The position numbers were made by a program, and so were the translations under genes. DNA of 64,000 nt from a virus. Positions 3,287-55,935 of this stretch are shown here, piece after piece. The DNA is taken from the IMG/VR virus record IMGVR_UViG_3300025727_000011, positions 1 through 64,000 of that record. The stretch is one strand, 5' to 3'. Under the pieces are notes generated by a model. That model was not told the DNA's origin. It did no database searches and saw nothing but the letters and a program-made list of their open reading frames with translations. How positions within the stretch are numbered: position 1 is the first letter of the stretch; every line of letters starts with the position of its first letter.

Positions 3287-3832
3287 TTGCGTCGAAAAGC
3301 CATGAACAACGTAAACTACCAAGAGCGTGCCAAAGAATTTTCCGTTGGGGATGTTGTAACACCCTTTGGTGATTGGGATGCTCAGGGTGGTCGTGTGACT
3401 GCTGTTTGGCCTGCCATTGGCATGGTCGATGTTGAGTTCAGCATTGGCAATCGTCGTTACCCTGTCGAGGATTTGCAGAGGATCGACGCAAACGGTAACG
3501 CTTCACCTCCCTACACCAACTCGGTGCCGGGAGGTCAACCAACCGTCCAAGTGCCCGGAGGTCCAAGCGAGTCACGGGTCGCTGTGGCTTTCGAGAAAAA
3601 ATCTCTGTATTGGGCGGCGAAGGATCGGCAGTATCGGATGACTCGTCCCGAGGCTGTTGATGGGTGTCCCAACTGTCCCAACTGTGGGCATGGGGTACCA
3701 CTCAAGAAAGCGATTTACAAAAGGCGTGACGGTTCCAGTGAGCGTCTAATGGGATGCCCTGACTGTATGTTTTTGATCAAAGATTCGGACATCATGAATT
3801 TCTTGCCTGTTGACGGAGGCGTCGAGGTCTGA
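3287..3832 (+). CDS. SH3/KOW-like and zinc-ribbon protein
   Basis: Residues 18-60 look like a small beta-barrel (VGDVVTPFGDWDAQGG, VTAVWPAIGMVDVEF), followed by a Pro/Gly linker and a C-terminal zinc ribbon with CPNCPNC (about 129-135) and a second knuckle GCPDC. The start may be the TTG at 3287, behind a G-rich stretch, or the ATG at 3302, which has no clear Shine-Dalgarno; both are in frame. The stop overlaps the start of the protease gene (TGATG), showing translational coupling. The exact role in head assembly is unknown. Confidence 0.7.
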   Translation: MRRKAMNNVNYQERAKEFSVGDVVTPFGDWDAQGGRVTAVWPAIGMVDVEFSIGNRRYPVEDLQRIDANGNASPPYTNSVPGGQPTVQVPGGPSESRVAVAFEKKSLYWAAKDRQYRMTRPEAVDGCPNCPNCGHGVPLKKAIYKRRDGSSERLMGCPDCMFLIKDSDIMNFLPVDGGVEV

Positions 3833-5268
3833 TGGCTTTTCTCAAGCGAGCCAATGCGATGGTCGTCCACCCTCGGATTTCATCTCGGGGATGGGGGGGT
3901 ATCCGTAAGGTTGCTTCGTCGGGTTCCAGTCGGAACTTGACTGATCAAGCTCATGAGATTCTCGGCACCAACCTTAATTCGGACACGCATCTCGTCACTC
4001 ACTGCACCATCGTCGCCTCGGTAGATGTAGATGATGTTGTTGGGGTGAAGCTAGGCAATGTCAAGGTTGGTTCCAAGATAGTCAATCGGAAGTGGGCTGA
4101 TTATCACATCAAGCCTCAGTGCTCGCAGTTTGTGAACAACAACGGTGACTCGTGGAGTCGTGACGTGCTCCGCATGGCGTACCCGACCTTCATTGGGGCG
4201 CACAACTTTCGTGAGCATGTCCAGATCGAGGACCAGTCGAAGGGCCGGATCATCGACGCCGCAGCACGCGACATCGGTGACTCCCTCTACATCGACATCC
4301 TCGTTGCCACCGACCGTAAACACGCGGCACTGGTGCAGGACATCGAGGCCGGGAAGATGGCAACCCTCTCGATGGGTTGCACGACCGACTTCAGTCTGTG
4401 TTCTCAGTGTGGGCACTTCGCTGTAGATGAAACACAACTTTGTGACCATATCAAGTACGCGAAGCTCAACACGTTCATGGATGACGCAGGACAGAAGCGC
4501 GTCATTGCAGAGTTGTGTGGCCATCAGACTTACGATGAGAATCCCGATGCCCCCGGTGGTGTTCGGTTCATCGAGGCTTCTTGGGTCGCAGTACCGGCTT
4601 TCCCTGGCGCTGTGATGCGGAACATTCTCGCTCCTGGTGAGGTATCGGGGGATCAGGTACGCAAGGTGCTTGCTTCACCTCCCCCTCAGTGGTCAGACAG
4701 CGCCATCGCCAAGGCCGCGAATCTATCTGTCCCCTCGCAGACGTATACTCGTTCTGCTTTTGGTTTTGATGAGGGTGATGATGAGGGTGGTGACGAGTCT
4801 GCTGCCCCTGATGCTCCTGCTGCCCCATTCCAAGATGTGGAAGATGCGATTTACGAGAACTTGAAGACACGGGTTCACGAGAGGATCAAGAAAGAGCTTG
4901 CCCAGAAGAACATTGAGGAAGCGATTGAGCCTGATTCCGCAATGGGTCCGAATGACAACCTGAACAAAGAAGCAAGTCTGCGATATGCGACAGCAATCAA
5001 TACTTTGGTTCGGGTTGCCTCCTCTCCTATTGCCCTCGTAGAGGGTGCTGCACGGATCAATGCTTCTTATGGCATTTCGGTCAGTCGAGGCTTGTACCGT
5101 GTTGCTCTGACAGCGGGCATTCCAACAAACCATTCATCTATTGATCGTTATCTGTTCGCTTGCCGAAAGGCTGCGGGCCGTGATCTTAATTCTGCCGAAG
5201 TCCGGGTTGTTGTCCGGGTCGGCACTCTGCTTGCCCAGTGGGCGAGCATCAACAACCCACCCACTTGA
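3832..5268 (+). CDS. prohead maturation protease with embedded zinc-finger-like insert
   Basis: Residues about 110-185 follow the pattern of herpesvirus/HK97-type prohead proteases: a His near AHNF (H124), a Gly-rich turn (KGRIIDAA), a strand pair (LYIDILVATDR), then G-K-M-A-T-L-S-M-G with candidate nucleophile S180. A Cys/His cluster follows (C190, C193, H195, C204, H206), which could bind zinc. The block FIEASWVAVPAFPGAVMRNIL is typical of the end of the protease core. The last 200 residues are acidic then helical and may act as a built-in scaffold. The gene starts on the preceding stop and is followed by the acidic scaffold-like gene, the usual protease-scaffold-capsid order. Confidence 0.75.
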   Translation: MAFLKRANAMVVHPRISSRGWGGIRKVASSGSSRNLTDQAHEILGTNLNSDTHLVTHCTIVASVDVDDVVGVKLGNVKVGSKIVNRKWADYHIKPQCSQFVNNNGDSWSRDVLRMAYPTFIGAHNFREHVQIEDQSKGRIIDAAARDIGDSLYIDILVATDRKHAALVQDIEAGKMATLSMGCTTDFSLCSQCGHFAVDETQLCDHIKYAKLNTFMDDAGQKRVIAELCGHQTYDENPDAPGGVRFIEASWVAVPAFPGAVMRNILAPGEVSGDQVRKVLASPPPQWSDSAIAKAANLSVPSQTYTRSAFGFDEGDDEGGDESAAPDAPAAPFQDVEDAIYENLKTRVHERIKKELAQKNIEEAIEPDSAMGPNDNLNKEASLRYATAINTLVRVASSPIALVEGAARINASYGISVSRGLYRVALTAGIPTNHSSIDRYLFACRKAAGRDLNSAEVRVVVRVGTLLAQWASINNPPT

Positions 5269-8224: not shown

Positions 8225-8311
8225 CGTTTAGGTGTGTGTATCAAGACGATGCCAACAACCCGGCGACGTGTCTTGGGTGTGGTTGAACATTTGCAGCGGA
8301 AGTGTTTACGT

Positions 8312-8340
8312 TTGTGGTCATATTCTGGAGGTGGTACAAT
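8312..8340 (+). promoter_or_regulatory. host-like promoter TTGTGG-N17-TACAAT
   Basis: The -35 (8312-8317) and -10 (8335-8340) hexamers are spaced by exactly 17 bp and end 6 nt before the ATG at 8347, so the mRNA could be nearly leaderless. The five bases after the -10 (ACGCC) are the same as after the promoter of the endonuclease gene at 36 kb. Confidence 0.5.
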
Positions 8341-8346
8341 ACGCCC

Positions 8347-10296
8347 ATGCCTGACCTCTCTGACCTCACGCCCGAAGTCCTCCGACGCCTCTATGCCAAT
8401 GACCTTCTCCCAGAGAACGTCATTGCGGAGAGGTACGGGACGTACCAAGTCAAGATCAACCGGCTTCGGAATAAGTGGGGGATCCCGACCATCGGGAAGA
8501 CAGGCCGACGCACGGCGGCGCTTCCGGCTCTAACTGGCCGACAGCGTGAACTGGTGTTGGGATCTCTTTTGGGGGATGGGTACATGAGCGCCCCGAGTCG
8601 CCACACCGCTCGTTTCAACGAGAGTCATTCGGTCAAGCAGTCTCCCTACCTTCACTGGAAAGGGGGTATCCTCGGACCCCATGTGTCCTCGTATGCTCCC
8701 ACAATCAAGCGGGACGGAGACAAGGTGTTCCACGGGGAACGATTGACGGGTGTTGCCAGTACCCACATGCGGGAGTGGTACGACCTGTTCTACCCGGCCC
8801 CTGAAAGGAAACGGGTATTCCCCTCGGACCTCTACAAGCGTCTGACTCCATTTGCTCTGGCTGTGTGGTTTATGGATGATGGGGGTGTAATGACTCATTA
8901 CCATCCTCGAATTACGTTCGGCCTTGATCTGTTGAGTCTAAAGAGAGCGGTTAGGGCGCTTCGGCGGCTGGGTTTGAAGCCCAAAGTACATGAGGATAAG
9001 TGTGGTACGCACACAATTACGTTCCCTGACCAAGACCGGGAGTTCTACCGTCTGATCTCCTCGCATGTTCCTGATTGCATGTCCTATAAACTGCCTTTAG
9101 AGGACACTTCACGTCGTAAGGCAGATAAGAATGCCAAGCAGTTGAAGCCTGACCGAGCGCGAAGGTTGTATGAGGGGGGTCTATCTTTGAATGATCTCGC
9201 CTCTCTGTACGGGGTCGGGAGGTCAACAGCCAAGCGGCGGGTGCTGGCAGGGGGTGGCACCCTCCGAAGCGCGGGCCGTAAGCCCCGCATTTACTCTCGG
9301 GAGGCTGCGGATGAGGTTCTGGCTCTATACACACCGAAGGTGTGGGCGTCACTTTCTGGTGTGGACAAAGCTCGATGGGTGGGGGAGGTTTTTGAGGTGC
9401 TCCGAGGCACGGGGTTTCCAGCACCTAGTCTTTTGTTAGACGAGACATTTAACCGTGACGTTGAGTTGGTTCAGTTGACTCAATACCGGATTGAGAACGA
9501 GACTTTGTTTCCGTGGTCAGTGTCGGGTAATCGAGCTTGTCTTCCATATTTCCCGAACCGATACAGGGCGGTATCTCGTGGGAAACGAACGGCTTACGAG
9601 GCATGGCATGACGATAAGGTGCTTCGGTGGGCGATCCGTTTCCAGTTGGATGCGGGTGACCCTGTGTTCCCGCACAGGGTACTGCGGGCTGTTACCATGC
9701 AACACCGGACCCCGAGTGTGTTTCGTCCTACCGTAGCAAGATGGGTGTATGAGACATATTGCCCGACTGGAGGTACGGTGTGGGATCCGTGTTCGGGTTA
9801 TGGGGGCAGGCTTCTTGGGGCACACGTCGCTGGGGTCCGCTACGTCGCTACCGACGTAGAACCGGAAACGGTGGCGGGGAATCAGGCTCTTGCTGACAGG
9901 CTCGCTTTCAAAAGTGCCGAGATCCATGAGTGTCCTGCGGAGCAGTTTGATCCCGGCTTTGTTGATCTTGTGTTCACGTCCCCTCCGTATTTTGACCGGG
10001 AGCAGTATTCTGATCGGAGCAGCCAATCGTGGGTGGCACACGGTTCCGGTTTCGACGGTTGGGTTGAGGGGTTTTTGCGTCCTGTCTTCGCAACCGCATA
10101 CCGCCGAGCACCGGTCATGGTGATCAACGTGGCCGACATCCGAAGTGGGGGGAGGTTGATACCTCTTGTAGATCGAACGATTCAGACAGCATTGGAGGAA
10201 GGATATACGTTCAGGGAACGTGTGTGGATGCCTCTTGCTCGACTGAACAGGCCGCCAGAGAAGGCACGAGAACCACTTTTGGTGTTCGTCCGATAA
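8347..10296 (+). CDS. LAGLIDADG homing endonuclease fused to a SPPY-type DNA methyltransferase
   Basis: The 649-residue protein has four parts. Residues 1-50 form a helix-turn-helix-like segment. Residues 69-250 carry two LAGLIDADG motifs (LGSLLGDGYM near 72, AVWFMDDGG near 172), enough for a single-chain endonuclease. Residues 265-300 form a second HTH (SLNDLASLYGVGRST). Residues 340-649 are a DNA amino-methyltransferase with motif I DPCSGYGGRLLGA (about 480) and motif IV TSPPYFD (about 543). SPPY is typical of N4-cytosine or N6-adenine enzymes. There is no intein splice junction, so this is a free-standing gene. It lies just after the capsid terminator with its own promoter. A role combining cutting and protecting is inferred. 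Confidence 0.85.
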   Translation: MPDLSDLTPEVLRRLYANDLLPENVIAERYGTYQVKINRLRNKWGIPTIGKTGRRTAALPALTGRQRELVLGSLLGDGYMSAPSRHTARFNESHSVKQSPYLHWKGGILGPHVSSYAPTIKRDGDKVFHGERLTGVASTHMREWYDLFYPAPERKRVFPSDLYKRLTPFALAVWFMDDGGVMTHYHPRITFGLDLLSLKRAVRALRRLGLKPKVHEDKCGTHTITFPDQDREFYRLISSHVPDCMSYKLPLEDTSRRKADKNAKQLKPDRARRLYEGGLSLNDLASLYGVGRSTAKRRVLAGGGTLRSAGRKPRIYSREAADEVLALYTPKVWASLSGVDKARWVGEVFEVLRGTGFPAPSLLLDETFNRDVELVQLTQYRIENETLFPWSVSGNRACLPYFPNRYRAVSRGKRTAYEAWHDDKVLRWAIRFQLDAGDPVFPHRVLRAVTMQHRTPSVFRPTVARWVYETYCPTGGTVWDPCSGYGGRLLGAHVAGVRYVATDVEPETVAGNQALADRLAFKSAEIHECPAEQFDPGFVDLVFTSPPYFDREQYSDRSSQSWVAHGSGFDGWVEGFLRPVFATAYRRAPVMVINVADIRSGGRLIPLVDRTIQTALEEGYTFRERVWMPLARLNRPPEKAREPLLVFVR

Positions 10297-34489: not shown

Positions 34490-34954
34490 ATGGCAGTCGA
34501 TATTTGGAAAGCCCCCGATGATGTCCACGACAAGGTGCGAGAGTTGATTGGGCAACACCACCCTGACCTCGCTCTCATTGTGGACGAGATCATCGTGGTG
34601 TTTCGTGGGAAGGCTGGCAAGTCTGGGGGGCAGGTTGTTCTCGGAAACAGCAAGAAGGTCGCGGCGTTGGCCAATGCTATAGGCAACACTGACTTCAAGT
34701 TTGTGTTGGAGGTCGCGGCAGATCAGTGGGATCAAGAGTTGACATCCAAGCAACGAGATGCCTTGTTGGACCATCTTCTCACTGCTTGTCGGTGTGAGGA
34801 AGACCCCAAGAGCGGCGATCTCAAGTGCTCGGTCGCAAAACCGGACATCATGGCTTTTCGTGAGAACATTGACCGGTACGGTATGTGGTTCCCCAGAGAA
34901 GAGAGTGAAGAGGACCCTTCACCGGTCGAGGAAATGTTCGGGACGGGTGAGTGA
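34490..34954 (+). CDS. phage metallopeptidase-like protein lacking the HExxH residues
   Basis: The 154-residue product follows the phage metallopeptidase family pattern: LALIVDEIIVVFRG, a small Gly-rich loop, DFKFVLEVAADQWDQEL, then QRDALLDHLLTACRCEEDP where members normally show DHELxHC. Here H95 is kept but the Glu and second His are Leu96 and Ala99. It is therefore probably not a peptidase and may serve as a binding protein. It has a GGTATCA-type element upstream and an AGAGAGG RBS. Confidence 0.6.
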   Translation: MAVDIWKAPDDVHDKVRELIGQHHPDLALIVDEIIVVFRGKAGKSGGQVVLGNSKKVAALANAIGNTDFKFVLEVAADQWDQELTSKQRDALLDHLLTACRCEEDPKSGDLKCSVAKPDIMAFRENIDRYGMWFPREESEEDPSPVEEMFGTGE

Positions 34955-35310
34955 TGTGGGGGTTGGATGTGATTCGCCATATCAATAGAAAAGCCGCTTC
35001 TCGGGCACAAACGCAAGAATTGGTGCCTTTTCGTGTAGTTTCGGAGAGTCAGATCCATAGTTGGCCTCCTTTCCCGTTCCCGCATCTTGGATATGCGTGC
35101 GAAGAGGTGGATTTTGACCACAAGCGTCTGGAAACGGTGTTTGTGGATTCATCCAGGTTCGGCGCAGAGGGTGAACCTGCTTTGACGGTGGATGCGTTCA
35201 AAGCACGGCTCTGTTCGTTGCTCCGTGAACACGGCCCCCTCCTCTGTGCAGTAGAGGAGCAGGGGCAATTCCAGGTGTACATTGCCGTCTGGAGATCCGG
35301 TGGCCTTTGA
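34954..35310 (+). CDS. hypothetical 118-residue protein
   Basis: The ATG shares a base with the preceding stop (GTGATG). The protein has an aromatic, Pro-rich centre (SWPPFPFPHLGYAC) and a C-terminal strand (QGQFQVYIAVWRSGG). It overlaps the clamp-loader start by 11 bases, so it is translated with the clamp loader. Function unknown. Confidence 0.5.
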   Translation: MWGLDVIRHINRKAASRAQTQELVPFRVVSESQIHSWPPFPFPHLGYACEEVDFDHKRLETVFVDSSRFGAEGEPALTVDAFKARLCSLLREHGPLLCAVEEQGQFQVYIAVWRSGGL

Positions 35311-35995
35311 TACCAAGTACCGACCTCAGACGTATGGAGACGTGCTTGGACAAGATGCGGCGGTTGCTGTGCTCCAGCAGTTTGTGGTTGAGGGTCGGGG
35401 TTATCACCAATCCTACGTCTTCTGCGGACAACACGGCTCTGGCAAGACCACCCTTGGGAGGATTCTTGCCAGAGCCTTGTTGTGCTCGTCTGCGGTGGAC
35501 GGGGCACCTTGCGATGAATGTGAGTCGTGTCTACTCCTCCTGCGTGGGGGAACGCACGAATGTTTTGTGGAGTTGGACGCCGCGACTAAGAGCGGCAAGT
35601 CCGATATCGCCCGTATCCTCGAAGACCTGTCCTACTCCACGGTGAGCGGGAAACGGCGCATCTATCTCTTTGATGAGTGCTTCACGGAGGACACTGTTCT
35701 CCTCACCCGCGATGGATTCCGGTCCATCCGTGATCTGGTTGAGGTGCGGTTCTCAGGTGAGGTGTTGTCCTTCGACACGGAATCCGGCCAGAGGGTCTGG
35801 CGTCCCGTGACGGACTGGTTCGACCTTGGGGATCGTGAGGTCATCACTCTGGAGTTCGACAACGGTGTGGAGATCACGGTCACCACGAATCAGGAGGTTT
35901 ACACGACCAACCGAGGCTGGGTGGAAGCCTGCCGGTTGACGGAGGACGATGATGTGGAGGAGGTTTGGTTCCAGCGGTTGATGGACGGGCTTTAG
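35300..35995 (+). CDS. clamp-loader (DnaX-like) N-half fused to split-intein N-fragment
   Basis: The GTG at 35300 with GGAG six bases upstream gives MAFDTKYRPQTYGDVLGQ, the classic DnaX opening. Walker A GQHGSGKTT (about 43-51) and a CDECESC zinc motif follow. At Walker B, the extein ends FDE and the intein begins with Cys127: CFTEDTVLLTRDGFRSIRDL (block A). The fragment is 105 residues, with strands up to VTTNQEVYTTNRGW (block B, where the usual His is Gln) and a TAG stop at 35993. No endonuclease domain is present. The partner C-fragment is encoded at 37206; trans-splicing would restore the AAA+ ATPase. Confidence 0.85.
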   Translation: MAFDTKYRPQTYGDVLGQDAAVAVLQQFVVEGRGYHQSYVFCGQHGSGKTTLGRILARALLCSSAVDGAPCDECESCLLLLRGGTHECFVELDAATKSGKSDIARILEDLSYSTVSGKRRIYLFDECFTEDTVLLTRDGFRSIRDLVEVRFSGEVLSFDTESGQRVWRPVTDWFDLGDREVITLEFDNGVEITVTTNQEVYTTNRGWVEACRLTEDDDVEEVWFQRLMDGL

Positions 35996-36006
35996 TCATG
36001 TATCAT
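35978..36006 (+). promoter_or_regulatory. host-like promoter TTGATG-N17-TATCAT
   Basis: The -35 (35978-35983) lies inside the end of the intein N-fragment and the -10 (36001-36006) just after its stop, with 17-bp spacing. ACGCC follows the -10, as in the promoter at 8312. It would give the endonuclease its own transcript. Confidence 0.55.
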
Positions 36007-36033
36007 ACGCCAGAACCCCAACCCGGTGTTATC

Positions 36034-37218
36034 ATGGTCGAAGGATCTCCTGAGATGGTCGAGTGCGCGTGTGGGTGTGGCACCCTCATCACCCGAAAGG
36101 GGAAGAACGGAAAGCCTCGCAAGTATTTACGGGGGCATCAGACCAGAGGCCGCAAGAAGGTAGACCGATCTTCTGAGGCATATTGGGAGAACCGGGTCCG
36201 GCGCATGAACACCTCTGCCCCCCTCTGCCGATGCGGTTGTGGTGACCCTGTTGCGGTCACTGTTTCTTGGCTCAGGCAGGCGTCGGAAAATGGAACTCGC
36301 CCTGTATGGCGACCGAAGTATGTGGAAGGCCACATGCCACAAGTCCCTTGCGGTTGCGGTTGTGGAACCCTTGTGGACATCCTCGATGTTCGGGGGCAAC
36401 CTCGGTCCTGTGTCCCCTCACATGCGGGAAGGCTGTCAACCCCACCTGAGAAGGTAGATTGGGAATCCCGCACCTCTGAGTGGAACCAGAACGCCCCAGA
36501 CTGCGCTTGCGGGTGTGAAAAACCTCTGGTTCGTACTGTGGGCCAAATGCGAGCATACCTTTCTGACCCTGGCTATCTGCCGGGGCATAACCAGAGGAAA
36601 GCGTGCGTCCTCCACATGACCCCAGAGGAGGAATCTTTCATCTATGGTTCCTTGCTGGGGGATGGTTGTCTGACCCGCCCTACCACAGGCACACCTCGAT
36701 TCATGTTCACACACGGGGCACCACAGAAGGCGTATGCCGAACACAAGATTGAAGTCTTGTCGAGGTTTGGTGCTTCGTTGAGTCGCGTGGAGAGTGCTGG
36801 GTTTGGTGACCTTTCATACCAAGGCCGCACCAGTTGTATGCCCATCTTTGAGGGTGTTTGGGACGTGGTGCGCCACGACGGCAAGAAGCAGGTCAACTCT
36901 GAATGGTTGTCCAAGGTGGACCCCCGAGGTTTGGCCTACTGGTTCATGGACGACGGGTCGGTGCAGCGAAACCGCCACAACAAGAACCGAGGTCAGGTTT
37001 ACAACGCGGCTCTCCATACGGAAGGGTTCTCGGAGCAGGAGAATCATCTCCTGTCTGATTTTCTGTTCGTTGAGTACGGGGTCGAGGCACAAGTGAAGCC
37101 GACCAGATGCTATTTCTACCTCTACATTCCCCGCAAGGGTGCTGACCGACTGCTGGAGATTGTGGGGCCTTACTTGCACGCTTCGATGGCATACAAGGGG
37201 GTCATGTGGCTCGACTGA
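36034..37218 (+). CDS. LAGLIDADG homing endonuclease within the fractured clamp-loader locus
   Basis: The 394-residue reading starts at the ATG 28 nt after the -10; an in-frame ATG at 35998 is possible. Residues 1-195 contain four Cys-rich repeats of the form CxCGCG...GH (about 9, 62, 108, 158), probably zinc-binding DNA-recognition units. Residues 200-394 carry two LAGLIDADG motifs (IYGSLLGDGC near 203, AYWFMDDGS near 302), a single-chain endonuclease. It is in a different frame from both intein fragments and has its own start and promoter, so it is free-standing. Its last 13 bases overlap the C-fragment gene. Confidence 0.85.
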   Translation: MVEGSPEMVECACGCGTLITRKGKNGKPRKYLRGHQTRGRKKVDRSSEAYWENRVRRMNTSAPLCRCGCGDPVAVTVSWLRQASENGTRPVWRPKYVEGHMPQVPCGCGCGTLVDILDVRGQPRSCVPSHAGRLSTPPEKVDWESRTSEWNQNAPDCACGCEKPLVRTVGQMRAYLSDPGYLPGHNQRKACVLHMTPEEESFIYGSLLGDGCLTRPTTGTPRFMFTHGAPQKAYAEHKIEVLSRFGASLSRVESAGFGDLSYQGRTSCMPIFEGVWDVVRHDGKKQVNSEWLSKVDPRGLAYWFMDDGSVQRNRHNKNRGQVYNAALHTEGFSEQENHLLSDFLFVEYGVEAQVKPTRCYFYLYIPRKGADRLLEIVGPYLHASMAYKGVMWLD

Positions 37219-38309
37219 TCCGAAAGTCCGAACCTTTCCGTGCTCCCGTGTACGATGTGGCCGTGGAGGGCACCCATTCCTTCTTCGCGGCGTCGGGTCC
37301 ATCCCCGGATCACGGCATCCTCGCTCACAACTGTCACCGCCTCAGTAAGAACGCTCTCGATGCTCTTTTGAAGCCAATGGAGGACAGCGTTCCCGGTTCC
37401 GAGGACAAGCGGTTGGTCTGCATTTTTTGCACGACCGAGCCGGAGAAGATGGTCAGCACTATCTTCTCTCGGTGTGCTCCTGCGTTTGTGATCCGGTCGG
37501 CCCCCCTGGAAGCTATCGCCGCACGGCTTGCGTTCATCTGTGGTCAGGAAAACATCTCATACGAGGACGATGCTTTGATGTTGGCTGCGGAGCAGTCAGG
37601 GTCGCATATTCGGGATGCGATCAAGATGGTTGAAGGCGTTTCAATGATGGGGGGCGTCACCCGAGAAAACGCCTCCAAGTACCTGCATCTTGATGCCAAT
37701 GACACTGTGCTTGATTTGTTGGAGGCATTGGAGTCTGATCTGCCACAGGCAGTGAGTCATGCAATGGCATTATCTCAAAAGATGAGTCCGTCAGGTGCTT
37801 ATGGTCGCTTAGCGGAAGCGGCCATGTTGATTTATCAGGTGCATCTTGGTGTCACCAAGGTTCCTATGAAGTGGGATACGGAGCGGGTTTCAACCCTTGC
37901 GTCTGAGGGAGCTACATGGCTCAATGTCGCCCAACGGTTTGCAGCCCCTCCACATCGACCGACGCATCAAACCTTGGTTCTGGACACAGCTACAGTTCAC
38001 CATCTCTACGGAATGGGCACACTGACAGCCCCACAAGTCGTGATTTCTGCGAAAAATGCGACCAACGGCTCCTCTTCATCAGAAGTGGGTATCATTCCGC
38101 ATGTTGATCCCCAACCGAAAGCATTGGCGCAATTTCATACTCGAAGCGGAGTATACGTTGATCCTCGTGCTATTGGTCAAGGCCCTCCTGATCGGAGCAT
38201 TGAAACTACCTCTACCGAAGAATCTATGTCTAACACGATTAGCCCAACAACCTTTCGTGAGTTGGTTCGTCATCATTTGCAGGGGTTGAGGAGTGGACGA
38301 ACGCGATGA
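37206..38309 (+). CDS. split-intein C-fragment fused to clamp-loader (DnaX-like) C-half
   Basis: The GTG at 37206, with AAGGGGG just upstream, begins a 42-residue intein C-fragment: VYDVAVEGTHSFFA (block F) and GILAHN before Cys43 (block G; penultimate His, terminal Asn and Cys+1 all present). The C-extein starts CHRLSKNALDALLKPMED, which directly continues the DnaX Walker B/sensor 1 region, with sensor motifs FCTTEPEKM and the DnaX collar after it (325 residues). The N- and C-exteins rejoin to about 450 residues, a normal phage clamp-loader size. Confidence 0.85.
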   Translation: MARLIRKSEPFRAPVYDVAVEGTHSFFAASGPSPDHGILAHNCHRLSKNALDALLKPMEDSVPGSEDKRLVCIFCTTEPEKMVSTIFSRCAPAFVIRSAPLEAIAARLAFICGQENISYEDDALMLAAEQSGSHIRDAIKMVEGVSMMGGVTRENASKYLHLDANDTVLDLLEALESDLPQAVSHAMALSQKMSPSGAYGRLAEAAMLIYQVHLGVTKVPMKWDTERVSTLASEGATWLNVAQRFAAPPHRPTHQTLVLDTATVHHLYGMGTLTAPQVVISAKNATNGSSSSEVGIIPHVDPQPKALAQFHTRSGVYVDPRAIGQGPPDRSIETTSTEESMSNTISPTTFRELVRHHLQGLRSGRTR

Positions 38310-54846: not shown

Positions 54847-55935
54847 ATGGACTGTTCAATTTGTGGGTTCACCGTTGCCAACGTGCGCGGCCTCGCTTCT
54901 CATTTCCGGCACCAGTCGGACACCCATCCCGACTACGAGACGTGGAAGTCTGACCAGAAGTGGGCGGGCAAGATCGAGGACGAGGACTTCGTTCGTTGTC
55001 GGGAGTGCGGCTTTCGGTCTGCCAGCCTTGCACGGCACTTGAAGTCATCCCACGGATTCACGGCTGACGAGTACCGGGTCAAGCACGGGTCGGATGCCTT
55101 GACCCGCAATCGCCGCACGGAGGCAAAGCGTCGGGAGGGCATTAGGAACGCGAAGCAAGATCGGACGGGTACGAAGCAAGTGCCTTGCTCTACCTGTGGG
55201 GTGGAGATGACAGTCCACAAGCTGTCCCAGTCGAATCTCAAATGTGGTGTGTGTAAGCAGGTGGAGAAGGAAGCACGGTGGGAGGGTCTGGAGGACGGGT
55301 TCGACTATGTGACCTGTCTCGACTGTGGTTACCGGGCTGTGAACCTGACCTCGCACATGCAGAACGCTCACCCTGACTACCGGGAGCGTCACCCTGACGC
55401 GCAGATCAACGCGGAGGTTTCCCGCTCTCGTATCGGTGGGAGCGGGCAGAAGATCGACCTCACAGAAGCCGACCTGACCCCATACATGGACGGCAAGGGA
55501 TGTGTTGAGGTGGCGAAGGCCGCAGACCATCTTGGGTGTTCGTGGCCTGTTGTCCTGCGGACCTGCCGTGCTCTCGGCATCCCGACACGGAACAAGTTGG
55601 CGACCCAGAAGCGGGTGTTGGACATGGTGGCTCAGGTGTTGGGTGAGCCATACAAGTGGGAGTGGTCACACCCGGAAATCAAGAACCCGGAGACGGGGTA
55701 CACGCTGTTCTTCGATGGGTACTTCCCGAAGTCGAAGTTGATCTGCGAGTACCACGGTCGGCAGCACTTTGAGATGATCCCCTACTGGCACAAGACGGAG
55801 GAGGTCTTTCAGCGGCGTGTGGCACTGGAAGCCTACAAGGTTCAGCGTGCTCGTGATCTTGGGTATCGGATCATTGAAGTCCGTTTCGATGATCCGTTGA
55901 CCTCGGTGGATTTCTACCGGGGCTTGCTTCGGTGA
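54847..55935 (+). CDS. zinc-finger homing endonuclease with Vsr/EDxHD-like nuclease domain
   Basis: The 362-residue protein has four zinc-binding units: CSICGF, CRECGF with RHLKSSHG (Ros/MucR-like), CSTCG with CGVC, and CLDCGY with HMQNAHP. An HTH-like segment (VAKAADHLGCSWPVVLRT) follows. The C-terminal nuclease reads FFDGYFPKSKLICEYHGRQH, then a helix and YRIIEVRFDDPL, the Asp...Glu...His layout of Vsr-like or EDxHD homing endonucleases. It is placed directly after the sheath gene with its own weak promoter, typical of a free-standing endonuclease. Confidence 0.7.
   Translation: MDCSICGFTVANVRGLASHFRHQSDTHPDYETWKSDQKWAGKIEDEDFVRCRECGFRSASLARHLKSSHGFTADEYRVKHGSDALTRNRRTEAKRREGIRNAKQDRTGTKQVPCSTCGVEMTVHKLSQSNLKCGVCKQVEKEARWEGLEDGFDYVTCLDCGYRAVNLTSHMQNAHPDYRERHPDAQINAEVSRSRIGGSGQKIDLTEADLTPYMDGKGCVEVAKAADHLGCSWPVVLRTCRALGIPTRNKLATQKRVLDMVAQVLGEPYKWEWSHPEIKNPETGYTLFFDGYFPKSKLICEYHGRQHFEMIPYWHKTEEVFQRRVALEAYKVQRARDLGYRIIEVRFDDPLTSVDFYRGLLR

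Follow-up and report, generated by a model that had tools for sequence, protein, structure and literature searches.

A viral clamp-loader gene split at Walker B by a putative trans-splicing intein, with a LAGLIDADG endonuclease gene between its halves

The IMG/VR virus record IMGVR_UViG_3300025727_000011 (69,665 bases) was analysed over its first 64,000 positions, hereafter the window, and carries at 35300-38309 (plus strand) a DnaX-like clamp-loader gene that is interrupted at its Walker B motif. Very probably this is a fractured dnaX whose product is rejoined by trans-splicing of a split intein and whose insert is spread by homing of the endonuclease encoded between the halves; splicing, cleavage and homing are what we infer from the sequence. 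The original prediction, made from the DNA letters, had described a clamp-loader gene fractured by a split intein, between whose halves lies a LAGLIDADG gene. Both the anatomy of the locus and the existence of relatives split at the same site support that description, and the coordinates, fragment lengths and frames it gave are correct.

Anatomy of the interrupted gene

The locus consists of three consecutive open reading frames (ORFs) in three different frames, with the two halves of the intein on separate polypeptides, each having its own start and stop. The N-half (frame 2) runs from a GTG at 35300, preceded by the Shine-Dalgarno-like TCTGGAGA, to a TAG at 35993-35995. Its residues 1-126 (35300..35677) are DnaX from Walker A to the DE of Walker B, match TIGR02397 (dnaX_nterm) at 1.7e-34 and are 90% identical at the amino-acid level to the uninterrupted proteins of loci L059 and L001; the next 105 residues (CFTEDT..., 35678..35995 with the stop) form the intein N-fragment. 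The C-half (frame 0) extends from a GTG at 37206 to 38309 and begins with a 42-residue intein C-fragment (37206..37331, ending in ILAHN), followed by CHRLSKN... and the remainder of DnaX (37332..38309), which matches TIGR02397 at 1.3e-24 and the lid domain PF22608 at 3.6e-4. As half-length proteins should, both fall below the full-length TIGR02397 cut-off. Walker A, Walker B and lid of an AAA+ protein of the DnaX (gamma/tau) type are thus spread over the two polypeptides, and the break falls exactly at Walker B (DE|C...HN|CHRLS).

The interruption of the DnaX gene is confirmed by comparison with uninterrupted homologues, in which this conserved site is continuous. Locus L001, a near relative of the window that has its neighbouring genes in identical order and no insert, delimits the inserted DNA as 1,654 bp, exactly 35678-37331, and the alignment with DnaX of L001 and others places it precisely between DE and the +1 residue. 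Just upstream of dnaX, a 119-residue ORF at 34951-35310 lies inside a stretch of about 330 bp that is also missing from L001.

The middle ORF (frame 1) is a homing endonuclease gene predicted to be translated independently (35998..37218, 406 residues from an ATG at 35998, which is a likelier start than the earliest in-frame one, TTG 35965; ATG 36034 is a further candidate). It matches LAGLIDADG_2 (PF03161) almost completely (E=1.1e-26, residues 213-383, profile positions 2-166 of 168), and its catalytic domain (36634..37197) has both motifs intact, GSLLGDG and AYWFMDDG. The predicted structure (pLDDT 82 overall, mostly above 90 in the catalytic domain) resembles I-WcaI (PDB 6x1j) and I-SceI (PDB 1r7m), the closest solved relatives by sequence and by fold; these two are intron-encoded and, unlike the protein of the window, have no N-terminal CxCGC repeats. 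Four such repeats (CxCGC...GH, 36064..36597) lie in the N-terminal half of our endonuclease and form a probable zinc-binding DNA-recognition region. They are kept in locus L056 and, minus the first, in L055, and the motif occurs once in the helicase-gene endonuclease of Escherichia phages described below; we did not see them in the free-standing or in-frame LAGLIDADG_2 relatives that were inspected.

The GTG of the C-half overlaps the stop of the endonuclease gene by 13 nt, and a strong Shine-Dalgarno-like match, AAGGGGGT, lies within the last endonuclease codons (37195..37202). Its pairing energy of -9.3 kcal/mol, at a spacing of 3, is beyond the 5% quantile for 573 start-like codons. Overlap of the C-half start with the endonuclease stop recurs in nearly all of 21 fractured loci compared, the starts of three of them (L133, L159 and L165) having been set by eye and being approximate. 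A group I intron around the endonuclease was considered and rejected, Rfam giving a single sub-threshold chance match on the other strand and the endonuclease stop overlapping the C-half start.

From this arrangement the following course may be proposed. The three co-directional genes would be expressed with translation of the C-half starting from the ribosome-binding site that lies within the 3' end of the endonuclease gene, and the two intein fragments would assemble and trans-splice DnaX(1-126) to DnaX(127-end), restoring DE-CHRLS. In a mixed infection the endonuclease, presumably a monomer like I-SceI and with a probable zinc-repeat DNA-binding region, would cut intein-less dnaX at the codons for Walker B, and the whole 1.65-kb element would be copied into the empty allele by repair.

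Same-site relatives and their reading frames

Searches of IMG/VR with the N-half and with the C-half DnaX yielded about 50 distinct relatives, five of which (contigs or groups) have an intein at exactly this site. Three of these, L054, L055 and L056, are split there and share the order and the fragment lengths of the window. L055 and L056 have intact endonucleases (355 and about 395 residues; 42% and 47% identical to that of the window). In L054 (5379-7087) the endonuclease is reduced to a remnant of 92 residues, in which the second catalytic motif survives and whose tail still holds the ribosome-binding site of the C-half; both intein fragments persist despite this decay, and the split is therefore held for its own sake. 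The other two, L057 and L062, are contiguous mini-inteins of 154 and 167 residues, which may have lost the endonuclease and fused again. The remaining relatives (about 40) have no intein at the site and show Ser, Ala or Cys as their +1 residue. Among these is L025, empty at Walker B but interrupted at the P-loop (GSGK|C...HN|T, 3288-5000) by a large in-frame intein of the ordinary kind.

These relatives bear on whether the three frames are genuine, since related LAGLIDADG_2 endonucleases do occur in frame in contiguous inteins (L108, L104, L089, L090 and others), and an ordinary intein of that kind might have been broken by sequencing or assembly errors. Such an origin is hardly credible here. 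It would require two indels in the window and corresponding errors in L054, L055 and L056, where the frame relations among N-half, endonuclease and C-half are different ones; the L055 arrangement, moreover, is present in three assemblies with zero differences across the three genes, and stop, Shine-Dalgarno sequence and start all stand at the right places. The count of N-frame stops inside the endonuclease gene, set against synonymous-codon shuffles, was 7 in the window for 7.9 expected, which argues that no read-through has been selected. The picture was similar for L056, for the Escherichia phage locus L178 and for L055, in which N-half and endonuclease share one frame with a stop between them, so that the count there was made in the remaining two frames. 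The frameshift that the original prediction named as its possible undoing is accordingly excluded at the level of the assemblies. Programmed frameshifting is likewise ruled out, as the frame relations differ between loci.

Splicing residues and mobility

The N-fragment has weak matches to the Pfam Hint and Intein_splicing families and a strong one when searched as a family profile, the best match among solved proteins being the trans-splicing NrdJ-1 intein (7.6e-14). Cys1, the terminal Asn (HN) and Cys+1 of a class 1 intein are present, and these residues, together with blocks A, F and G, are kept in all six intein-bearing loci. A tree built on the DnaX exteins, including these six sequences, requires six changes of intein state, all of them forced by well-supported branches: the window is sister to the empty L001, L056 to the empty L021, and each phage that has the intein clusters with empty relatives. 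This scatter of intein and empty alleles is as expected of a mobile element, and the element is probably mobile.

Several points weigh against trans-splicing and homing as set out above. The start of the endonuclease is uncertain among its three candidate codons. Structure prediction for the contiguous relative L057 gives a fold that matches inteins throughout, although the AlphaFold model is weak (pLDDT 62) and is of use for the fold class only. The block-B His, which is essential in many inteins, is replaced by Gln in four of the six loci: instead of TxxH the window has TTNQ, L054 has TLGQ, and L055 and L057 have TTDQ, while L056 and L062 retain the His. The original prediction described the two intein fragments properly and overlooked this loss. 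It raises the possibility of a worn-out intein that does not splice, with the clamp-loader pieces assembling non-covalently. There is a precedent in the NrdA of phage Aeh1, a phage gene split by the endonuclease gene mobE, for which function without splicing has been reported (PMC2988022). We nevertheless regard a non-splicing clamp loader as very unlikely at the present locus. Despite deep divergence all remaining splicing residues have been retained, the same Gln is found in the contiguous, single-ORF intein of L057, and the break falls inside Walker B itself. Natural inteins without the block-B His form a very small subset and yet work, and in an engineered intein a bulky residue at -1 was able to take over the role of the His (PMC6333167). 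The -1 residue at the insertion in the window is Glu, which makes a working intein without the His plausible here, if unproven.

Other adverse points concern mobility. Intein similarity broadly tracks the extein clades, the closest pairs for the N- and C-fragments being window and L054 (73 and 76% identity), L055 and L057 (66 and 65%) and L056 and L062 (68 and 66%), and a clear co-conversion tract around the insertion was not found on comparing the window with L001. The similarity of these two does drop from 0.93 just upstream of the insertion to 0.73 just downstream of it, which is suggestive only. An old split intein, inherited vertically with many losses and a fossil endonuclease, and hence not mobile now, would account for the pairs that match the extein clades. 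Such a history seems unlikely, given that three lineages, with endonucleases about 45% identical, each have the ORF and both catalytic motifs intact, and that the grouping of every intein-bearing phage with empty ones would demand repeated exact loss, which is hard to produce. Within the preferred reading, a homing element, the pairs point to transfer among near relatives, or to transfer mixed with descent and loss, and the divergence of the endonucleases, about as great as that of the inteins, suggests a long residence of the endonuclease. Ratios of non-synonymous to synonymous change (dN/dS) were unsuited to the question, the intein pairs being overly divergent and the L055 copies identical. 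A bacterial source of the intein was not found in a scan of genome contigs, which is weak evidence as it relied on short patterns.

Other fractured genes and the wider significance

Fractured genes with split inteins are a known arrangement; those that Dassa et al. described in 2009 reportedly have a conserved enzyme gene divided by the two parts of an intein, with a free-standing endonuclease gene in the gap. The window has in common with them the split conserved gene and the free endonuclease gene between the intein halves, and differs in its host, a clamp loader, and in its endonuclease, a LAGLIDADG_2 protein with CxCGC repeats. Among better characterised systems, the NrdJ-1 split intein (PDB 8ubs) has a similar YTxNRG segment before the break; it keeps the block-B His and sits in another host gene. 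The isolate Pseudomonas phage MIJ3 has a split PolB intein with an HNH gene between the halves (PMC6892783) and thus also a fractured replication gene, with HNH and a polymerase in place of LAGLIDADG and a clamp loader. The Spl/Ssp DnaX intein (PDB 7cfv) likewise lies in a DnaX protein and is detectably similar (1.1e-10), but is contiguous and cyanobacterial, unlike the split phage intein described here.

Further fractured loci were gathered with an intein profile by short patterns, so that the sample is not random. In 19 intervening ORFs of these loci there was no LAGLIDADG match; they matched GIY-YIG, NUMOD3, DUF559/MTES_1575, TnsA-like or, weakly, HNH families, or nothing. The expectation that enzymes in this slot are mostly Vsr-like did not hold in the sample examined, which is diverse (GIY-YIG, Vsr/DUF559-like, TnsA-like and HNH-like). 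In two fractured genes, L160 and L168, the intervening ORF between the intein halves is on the opposite strand.

A search with the endonuclease showed about a dozen contiguous inteins to have LAGLIDADG_2 in frame, and found it also in the fractured helicase gene of two Escherichia phages, AN_ECEAS (PP944860, L178, 2258-5392) and ES (OR466728, L182), relatives of which have an uninterrupted helicase. Their helicase is split at Walker B as in the window (DE|C...HN|CH), with a LAGLIDADG_2 gene bearing a CxCGC repeat in another frame, and the pieces are annotated as unrelated separate genes (hypothetical proteins and a helicase); unlike the window, the host is a Superfamily-2-type helicase and the block-B His is present. 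The original prediction knew of no clamp loader with a LAGLIDADG enzyme in this slot. The enzyme is indeed there, and it is not unique, being found in the related phages and in this helicase. We found no clamp-loader fractured gene and no LAGLIDADG in a split-intein slot in the literature searched, a weak absence as few subscription papers were covered; the combination appears uncommon, with unannotated parallels such as the Escherichia phage helicase.

In three contiguous inteins a LAGLIDADG_2 gene lies in an overlapping frame: L177 (Xanthomonas phage FoX3, MT161383; 2414-4780), L100 (3271-6006) and L230 (1615-4419). Their intein frames hold no stops where synonymous shuffles predict 2.6, 12.4 and 4.7 (P 0.026, <0.0002 and 0.002, respectively). 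A wider proposal, which we put forward tentatively and which may well prove wrong, is that LAGLIDADG_2 genes sit out of frame in inteins, either overlapping an open contiguous frame (FoX3, L100, L230) or splitting it (the window, L055, L056 and the Escherichia phages). Once the open frame was lost, an intein that splices in cis would become a split one, the split could outlive the endonuclease (L054), and the DnaX inteins would be a natural family that works without the block-B His, perhaps helped by the Glu at -1.

Two further genes of the window have affinities to such enzymes. The single ORF at 8302-10296 combines an N-terminal LAGLIDADG_2 domain (3.6e-20), a resolvase-like helix-turn-helix and a C-terminal part that by eye is DNA methyltransferase-like. 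The zinc-finger protein at 54847-55935 has a C-terminal EDxHD/Vsr-like motif by eye and a weak PHROG homing-endonuclease match, and its gene adjoins a large tail-sheath-like gene.

One site in one gene brings together empty alleles, splits with an intact endonuclease, a split with a dead one and fused mini-inteins. Together with the in-frame and overlapping-frame relatives, the DnaX family allows a direct test of how a contiguous intein becomes split. It may also offer new candidate split inteins, a natural set without the block-B His for work on mechanism, and a candidate meganuclease scaffold with an added DNA-binding region. The clamp loader would thereby join the genes that phages rebuild by protein splicing.
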